Origin: Sphingomonadaceae bacterium
Lineage (GTDB): Bacteria; Pseudomonadota; Alphaproteobacteria; Sphingomonadales; Sphingomonadaceae
Length of the DNA: 32,777 nt
Reading direction: 5' to 3'
NCBI GenBank assembly: GCA_021300355.1
Contig: JAJTEF010000018.1
Span: 1-32,777, forward strand
The notes below the pieces were generated by a model. It saw only the letters and a list, made by a program, of their open reading frames with translations, made no database searches and was not told where the DNA came from. Shown here one piece after another: positions 17,399-18,390 of the stretch. Position 1 is the stretch's first letter. Each line of letters begins with the position of its first letter. The translations under genes and the position numbers were made by a program.

Positions 17399-18358
17399 TC
17401 AAAGAGTTAGGTTAAAGCCACGGACGGTTTTTAACGCACCGTCGATGTTCTCCACCAGTGCAATAGGCCGCAAATCTGCGTCCCTCGCCCAATGAAGCCC
17501 ATCTTTCATGGCAATCCCGGTCAAGACGCGACCTTGTTGGATCGCCCTTGCCTGTTCCGGGGAGAGATCAAGAGCCGGGATGTCGACCAGCCCTGCCTCT
17601 ATCGGCAAGATAATGTCTTCTTGGGCTGCCCCTTGGCCGAATGCATTCAGTTTGTCCAGCGAAATCGCGCTATTCAGGGCAAACGGACCGGCACGCACGC
17701 GGCGCAGCATAGAGACATGGCCGACGGTACCCAAAGCATAGGCAATATCTCGTGCCAAGCTTCGGATGTAGGTACCTTTGGAAACGTCGGCAGTCAGTGT
17801 GATTGAACCCAAAAGCGCGTCACCCTGAACTTGTTTCAGGGTCTTACTTTCATCCCGGTCAAAGTAAGATGCTGAAACAAGTTCAGCATGACAAATAGTG
17901 AGCTGATAGACCGTCACGGCCCGCGACTTCATCTCGACCACTTCCCCTGCCCGCGCCAAATCATAAGCGCGCTTGCCATCAATTTTGATCGCGGAATAAG
18001 CAGGCGGAACCTGTTCAATCGGCCCTGTAAACTGCGCAAGTGCTTGCTGCACCTGTTCCAGCGTGGGCCGCACGTCTGACGTCGCAACAACCTCGCCCTC
18101 GGCATCTAGGCCGCTGGTCTCTGTCCCAAAGTAGATGGTAAAATCATAAGTCTTGGACGCGTCGAGCATCCGGCCACATAATTTGGTCGCCTCACCCAAT
18201 GCGATGGGGAGCACACCGGTGGCGAGCGGATCAAGCGTACCGCCATGCCCGACCTTGACCTTGCCAAAGCCTGCGGAACGCAAGTTGCGCTTTACCGCTG
18301 CAACGGCCTGCGTTGAACCCAGACCAAGCGGTTTATCGAGGATGATCCAGCCATGCAT
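17399..18358 (-). CDS. truB: tRNA pseudouridine-55 synthase with in-frame palindromic-element insertion
   Basis: TruB makes pseudouridine 55 in the T-loop of tRNAs. The start [12 protein letters not shown] at 18358 has AAGGG at about 6 bases; a GTG two codons earlier is also in frame. The catalytic Asp43 lies in [14 protein letters not shown], and the conserved [19 protein letters not shown] and [13 protein letters not shown] segments follow. A C-terminal PUA-like tail completes the 319 residues. Residues 156-180, between the strand TVYQLTI and [15 protein letters not shown], are foreign to the family. They begin CHAELVSAS and end KTLKQVQGD, and are encoded exactly by a 75-base palindromic repeat. 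The insert falls in a loop before a core strand and the reading frame is kept, so the enzyme is probably still active. Neighbours are rpsO downstream and a DUF6491 gene upstream. Confidence 0.95.
17819..17893. repeat. Protein-coding palindromic repeat element inside truB
   Basis: The 75-base element is a double palindrome. Two local hairpins, CCCTGAA/TTCAGGG (17823-17841) and ATGCTGAA/TTCAGCAT (17869-17889), each close on a five-base CTTGT or ACAAG loop. They flank an outer stem CTTACTTT/AAAGTAAG (17843-17850 and 17861-17868) with a ten-base centre. The two 32-base halves match as inverted copies except at four sites, and those four sites are paired within their own small hairpin, so structure is conserved. 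Length is 25 codons, so the truB frame survives. The encoded CHAELVSAS...KTLKQVQGD peptide is one I recognise as recurring in unrelated predicted proteins of sphingomonads and some other bacteria, comparable to Rickettsia palindromic elements. Only one copy is visible in the window. Confidence 0.9.
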
Positions 18359-18390
18359 GCCCACCCTTTAGGGCGCGGTGTAGCATCAAG

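Follow-up and report, generated by a model that had tools for sequence, protein, structure and literature searches.

The palindrome that lies in frame in truB of the analysed DNA (the window, a stretch of 32,777 nucleotides) is, judged by its sequence, a dimer of CGTC-tagged repetitive extragenic palindromes (REPs), a member of an already known repeat family. It is best explained, we think probably correctly, as a non-autonomous CGTC REP dimer that is served in trans by a candidate GIY-YIG nuclease. The dimer would have entered the turn of a TruB beta-hairpin before the window's species and four close relatives split from one another, and it may stay there because it reads through in frame and because the turn appears to tolerate extra residues. 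The REP family and its truB targets have been described before; new here are the genes of a GIY-YIG subfamily that lie between outward-facing CGTC hairpins.

The truB gene (17399-18364, reverse strand) encodes tRNA pseudouridine synthase B, a protein of 321 aa from a GTG start, identified by profile search (TruB_N, 1.7e-48; TruB_C_2; TruB_C), and alignment places the insert in the turn between two strands. The dimer is a 76-bp inverted pair with outward tags (17818-17893), delimited by the sequence, a genome repeat search and comparison of TruB proteins. Its two halves of 26 bp, defined by sequence and by stem pairs over the 52 halves of the genome, each carry an 8-bp stem and the 5-nt loop CTTGT: half 1 (17818-17843, forward strand) has a CGTC tag and the stem ACCCTGAA/TTCAGGGT, and half 2 (17868-17893, reverse strand) has a mutated tag, TGTC, and the stem ATGCTGAA/TTCAGCAT. 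Between them, folding and an inverted-repeat search delimit a type B spacer (17844-17867) with complementary arms TTACTTT (17844-17850) and AAAGTAA (17861-17867) separated by 10 nt, a spacer class that recurs in other REP pairs of the window's genome. Taken over their full length, the inverted arms (17819-17850 and 17861-17892) comprise 32 nt, are complementary at 28/32 positions (88%) and stand 10 nt apart. The first-pass annotation had described 75 bases making up 25 codons. They coincide exactly with codons C158-D182 if numbering begins at the GTG start, or 156-180 if it begins at the inner ATG; once the CGTC tag is included, the length of the element is 76 bp, which is not a multiple of three. 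The two hairpins and the outer stem of that description can both be folded, the minimum free energy structure being a single long outer stem (-41.9 kcal/mol vs a shuffle mean of -13.99; z -9.7; 0/200 shuffles equally stable) and the two-hairpin form the alternative fold. A known RNA family was ruled out as the identity of the element, since no Rfam family matches anywhere in the window.

A search of the 2.18-Mb genome with the core CTGAAACAAGTTCAG (at most one mismatch) gave 52 occurrences, the reversed-pattern control gave 0, and the suspected dispersed palindromic repeat is thereby confirmed. The halves form 25 head-out inverted pairs with tags outward, counted over 94.8 kb of genome stretches with at most three mismatches per half, and single copies also occur. 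CGTC REPs are present in 44/45 genomes of the same genus. Over the 52 halves the tag is CGTC in 45 and TGTC in 3, stem pair 6-24 is C-G in 24 and T-A in 28, and stem pair 7-23 is C-G in 34, G-C in 16 and C-T in 2. The first stem pair is A-T in 50/52 halves, and the second is T-A in 28 and C-G in 24. At the outer four stem pairs 205/208 positions are paired, against a mean of 169.9 and a maximum of 182 in 1000 shuffles. The compensated stem changes seen earlier in the truB copy are borne out by this covariation of the outer pairs, which makes compensation a rule of the family and not a peculiarity of one copy. The compensated changes themselves are observed; that the hairpins are maintained as a structure of DNA rather than of RNA we infer. 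The specific RNA role once suggested for the element is left unsupported, as a DNA hairpin accounts equally well for the covariation.

Most of these features agree with the CGTC REPs of Di Nocera et al. 2013 (PMC3733652), whose hallmarks, in the passages of that paper drawn on here, are an unpaired end tag, a stem of 8-9 bp, a loop of 4-5 nt, A-T at the first and second stem positions and a 3-nt tail that is mostly, not always, CCA. The elements described here likewise have an unpaired CGTC tag, an 8-bp stem, a short loop, a predominance of inverted dimers, no adjoining Y1 transposase and in-frame copies in genes. The truB copy differs in its tail, which is CTTA instead of the CCA of that account and of other pairs in the window's genome, and in having TGTC as one of its tags. 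The same passages list REPs in truB of E. litoralis, S. alaskensis and S. maltophilia without a position inside the gene, and name tRNA synthetases among further targets. They also place RPE-1 in truB of R. conorii and equate RPE-4 and RPE-6 of that species with CGTC REPs, so that the likeness to Rickettsia palindromic elements (RPE) noted at the outset holds. The RPE and the present elements share a palindromic make-up and an in-frame position in house-keeping genes (truB and cysS here, TruB in R. conorii); RPE-1 is longer and, by the account in those passages, unrelated.

Comparison with TruB proteins that lack the element shows what the insertion changed. Seven same-genus TruB frames without it have 302 aa, where the window's frame, measured alike, has 322 aa; as trimmed for alignment they have 301 aa and the window's 320 aa, so that the insertion added 19 codons (57 nt) net and about 19 bp of the native turn are gone. 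Compared with these seven proteins the truB insert shows no target duplication, and in place of the clean duplication that had been envisaged some 19 bp of native sequence seem to have been replaced. Comparison with homologues had been proposed as the way to expose a native loop, and the short turn of the seven same-genus proteins leaves the insertion standing. That the segment is an ordinary long turn, palindromic by accident through neutral drift, is hardly credible: such loops do exist, one clade of the family (about a dozen loops) sharing a long, conserved, non-palindromic native loop at this very place, but the 52 core copies against a control of 0, the seven TruB proteins without the segment and the different palindrome families found in the same turn all speak against it.

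The occupancy of the turn was surveyed in 87 TruB loops, 35 from the genus, 12 from other families of the order and 40 hand-picked, and hence non-random, from the family list; TruB was matched in 133/142 genomes of the class. CGTC hairpins occur in 20/87 loops (11/35 of the genus, 9/40 of the hand-picked set and 0/12 of other families), distributed over eight genus codes, with at least four stem types (CTGAACTTGTTTCAG, CCGGACTTGATCCGG, CCCGCGAAAGCGGG and CCCGGCGGAAGCCGGG). The tag begins at an identical alignment position in the G000 clade, G016, G036 and G028. Other palindromes, without a CGTC tag, are found in the TruB turn of G099, G110, G289 and G136, with codon-shuffle z values of -5.7 to -11.0. 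One TruB turn is thus used repeatedly within the family, which adds to the list of Di Nocera 2013. A single-sequence structure model of TruB was unusable (pLDDT 30.7), so the turn is called a surface turn from its alignment, by sequence, with TruB of known structure. The insert has a higher dN than the rest of the gene (0-0.053 vs 0.008-0.016) and a lower dS (0-0.138 vs 0.118-0.221); third-position variability in insert and rest (3/25 vs 77/295) showed no significant difference (Fisher p 0.15).

Several observations stand beside this survey. Further CGTC-less repeats occupy the TruB turn of G099, G110, G289, G136 and G158 (loci L315, L335, L334, L333 and L358), the first four of which fold strongly. 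Another palindromic repeat (TTCACGCAGAGGCGCAGAG ... CTCTGCGCCTCTGCGTGAA) was found in relatives (L255:3050-3140, L253:3630-3715, L262:3590-3690 and, on the reverse strand, L264 at about 741-807), while G000 and G008 keep a short remnant there; a piece of it also occupies the truB turn of G007 and G034. Twenty phage records match TruB, including Acinetobacter phage MD-2021a with an annotated truB, and several of them are short 'Bacteriophage sp.' contigs of possibly bacterial origin.

In-frame residence is not confined to truB. By ORF span, only 2/25 pairs of the window's genome lie inside a frame longer than 300 aa, those of truB and of cysS (PF01406, 1.3e-80), which affirms in-frame presence in genes. 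TruB and CysS bear out the claim that the encoded peptide recurs in unrelated proteins; the remaining ORFs that span a pair (61-205 aa) in the window's genome look spurious. Ten genomes were aligned at the cysS site. The pair of G000 (C40:6446-6536) and that of G014 are of type A, whereas the sisters G008 and G015 carry a type B pair at the identical site with the frame kept; type-A-like pairs occur in G010, G003 and G007, and decayed pairs in G018 and G017. With type A and type B at one site, the pairs seem to have been swapped in place with the frame preserved, and the aligned sequences would point to replacement or conversion of REPs in place. The alignment showed pair-for-pair replacement and no fresh insertion, and a clean recent empty site of a REP pair was not found.

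How CGTC REPs move is left open by Di Nocera et al. 2013, in whose consulted passages these repeats seem to be without a dedicated transposase. The RAYT enzyme, which serves GTAG REPs, was rejected as their mover: no PF01797 (Y1 transposase) is present in the window's genome, only 4/45 genomes of the genus have one, and none of the five Y1-transposase loci of the genus (0/5) has a CGTC hairpin.

A different candidate is found between the repeats themselves. In the REP pair C32:26557-26959 of the window's genome, a spacer of about 350 bp encodes a GIY-YIG nuclease, and the domain (PF01541) is present in 45/45 genomes of the genus. Four partner proteins match PF01541 with E-values of 5.7e-16 to 4.2e-19, and alignment A1 displays the invariant Y, G, R, H, E and N of the GIY-YIG site, which we take to be the catalytic residues. 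NCBIfam, PADLOC and PHROGs gave no named family for the partner, just weak GIY-YIG matches. Its predicted structure (pLDDT 90.6) has UPF0213, UvrC and Slx1 as the nearest solved folds, which would suit, without proving, a nuclease for branched or hairpin DNA.

The setting of these genes was examined with a hairpin detector that requires tag, stem and loop and has a background, in truB loci, of 0.014 per 150 bp and strand. The genus test covered 70 loci, 64 small frames and six long ones (UvrC and one other); two small rows below the Pfam cut-off and most UvrC rows were left out, and the two rows of one broken gene were counted once. Outward hairpins within 600 bp on both sides flank 28/64 small GIY-YIG genes vs 0/6 long ones. 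Within 150 bp of the ORF ends, at least one outward hairpin accompanies 40/46 genes of the subfamily, as assigned by a motif rule drawn up after the sequences were seen, and 23/46 have them on both sides; among the others, which include a 397-aa frame, the count is 1/19. The small UPF0213/YhbQ-like GIY-YIG proteins share fold and size with the partner and differ in that, in the same genomes, that subfamily is unframed by CGTC hairpins (the same 1/19 non-REP-type genes).

The arrangement extends well beyond the genus. A scan of named genomes with alignment A1 gave more than 580 stretches and at least 568 relatives, of which the best 80 were analysed; their hosts include alpha-, beta-, gamma- and deltaproteobacteria, Planctomycetes, Bacteroidetes and others. 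Within 400 bp, 33/80 of these best-scoring loci have outward hairpins on both sides and 62/80 on at least one, compared with 8/80 and 38/80 for the inward-orientation control, which is not low because the loci often hold REP pairs of both orientations. Within 150 bp, after removal of two duplicates of genus loci from the best 80 of at least 568, 60/78 have an outward hairpin and 27/78 have one on both sides, and the outward density there is 36.9 times that at 300-900 bp. No outward hairpin lies within 150 bp in 18/78 of these best named loci and 6/46 genus loci. Among 33 PLSDB records with a match, eight of different hosts were examined; in all eight (8/8) a CGTC hairpin, in one orientation or the other, lies no more than 175 bp away, and 4/8 have outward hairpins within 110 bp on both sides. 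They include Neisseria, S. meliloti, A. lipoferum and N. aromaticivorans, whose groups are named as CGTC carriers in the passages of Di Nocera 2013 (PMC3733652) used here. The suf operon of the Azospirillum lipoferum 4B plasmid AZO_p3 (L351) carries, between sufB and sufC, a GIY-YIG gene that CGTC hairpins flank on either side. The 'plasmid' records of 2.17 and 4.94 Mb at L348, L349 and L353 (Neisseria gonorrhoeae, Aeromonas caviae) appear to be mislabelled chromosomes.

Nuclease and hairpin type go together. In 59 two-sided units the left and right hairpins agree at 26.9/30 sites, against a mean of 16.3 and a maximum of 19.4 in 2000 shuffles, and G012 has four units, each with a matched REP type of its own. 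In a tree of 142 GIY-YIG nucleases, many of whose forks are poorly resolved, the 96 typed rows need 8 changes of REP loop type, where 200 shuffles gave a minimum of 25; within the genus 38 rows need 5 changes, with a shuffled minimum of 7. Three unit spacer classes (CCA, CTT and AAC after the hairpin) correspond to three REP-pair classes. The seven orthologues of the window genome's unit have dN/dS of 0.03-0.13 (21 pairs), so these sequences indicate that the gene is under purifying selection.

These results bear on two other accounts of the nuclease. A selfish homing-type GIY-YIG gene might land in REP dimers and replace the spacer, the REPs spreading by other means; the units do resemble a REP dimer whose spacer became an ORF, GIY-YIG is a homing-endonuclease fold, and insertion sequences are reportedly able to sit in REPs, as ISPpu9 does. 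We regard this as unlikely in view of the few gene copies in genomes where REP sites number in the dozens, the way hairpin type follows the nuclease tree and the strong purifying selection at one locus in seven genomes. That selection, together with the nearest folds UPF0213, UvrC and Slx1, could also be read as a sign of house-keeping, the nuclease resolving REP hairpins or cruciforms on the host's behalf without moving the repeats, like the branched-DNA nuclease Slx1. Yet its presence is patchy among close relatives and the gene is encoded between two REPs, which house-keeping would not need, and we hold such a role to be quite improbable.

Several results speak against the preferred reading, service of the REPs in trans. 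REP abundance tracks the nuclease only loosely. Across 45 genomes, with kinship ignored, abundance is associated with nuclease type for CTTG (p=0.0026) and TTCCCGCG (p=0.0053), and one cross-comparison is also low (p=0.027). REP-rich genomes without a matching nuclease are G010 (100 halves, remnant only), G033 (87) and G031 (70), and G025 has 40 TTCCCGCG halves without a nuclease of that type. The window's genome itself has a unit of type A and no nuclease of the type B class to which the spacer of the truB element belongs. A search for clean empty sites of GIY-YIG units, the L119 unit included, found none; G015 lost its unit by a 578-bp deletion with 5-bp microhomology. In G010, at the place of the window genome's unit (L256:1-200, contig C50), the left REP is kept and the ORF is lost, a remnant that is possibly a step from unit to short element.

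By position, matching ends, agreement with the tree and purifying selection, the small GIY-YIG nuclease encoded between two CGTC REPs probably serves CGTC REPs in trans as RAYT serves GTAG REPs. On that analogy it would recognise the CGTC-tagged hairpin or cruciform, as TnpA-REP is described as reading hairpin and tag in the part of PMC8266576 consulted; it would then nick the hairpin base and so set off the copying by which the REP pair reaches new sites. The REPtron (RAYT/TnpA-REP with GTAG REPs) is built alike, with usually few nuclease genes between inverted tagged hairpins and many short pairs elsewhere; it differs in its enzyme, HuH/Y1 (PF01797) instead of GIY-YIG (PF01541), and in its tag, GTAG instead of CGTC. 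The proposal of a GIY-YIG partner is also what sets the present account apart from Di Nocera 2013 (PMC3733652), which, in the passages drawn on, has no dedicated enzyme. In the open-access literature, we found no paper joining GIY-YIG with repetitive extragenic palindromic or dRS3, and none treating CGTC, REP, RAYT and alphaproteobacteria together, subscription journals and preprints lying outside the scope of both searches; the open-access matches listed for GIY-YIG and palindromic included no REP paper. The wider claim, that the small GIY-YIG nucleases supply the dedicated enzyme so far missing for CGTC REPs, Neisseria dRS3 included, and form a second, independently evolved REP-mobilising system of many phyla in which nuclease and hairpin type co-evolve, we consider evenly poised between true and false.

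CGTC REPs are spread over the alphaproteobacteria and beyond, and a gene between repeats with matching ends makes the question of their mover testable in vitro. If the proposed partnership is true, the origin of the in-frame peptide inserts in TruB and CysS would be explained, and RAYT would have a counterpart, a second nuclease that lives off hairpin repeats.
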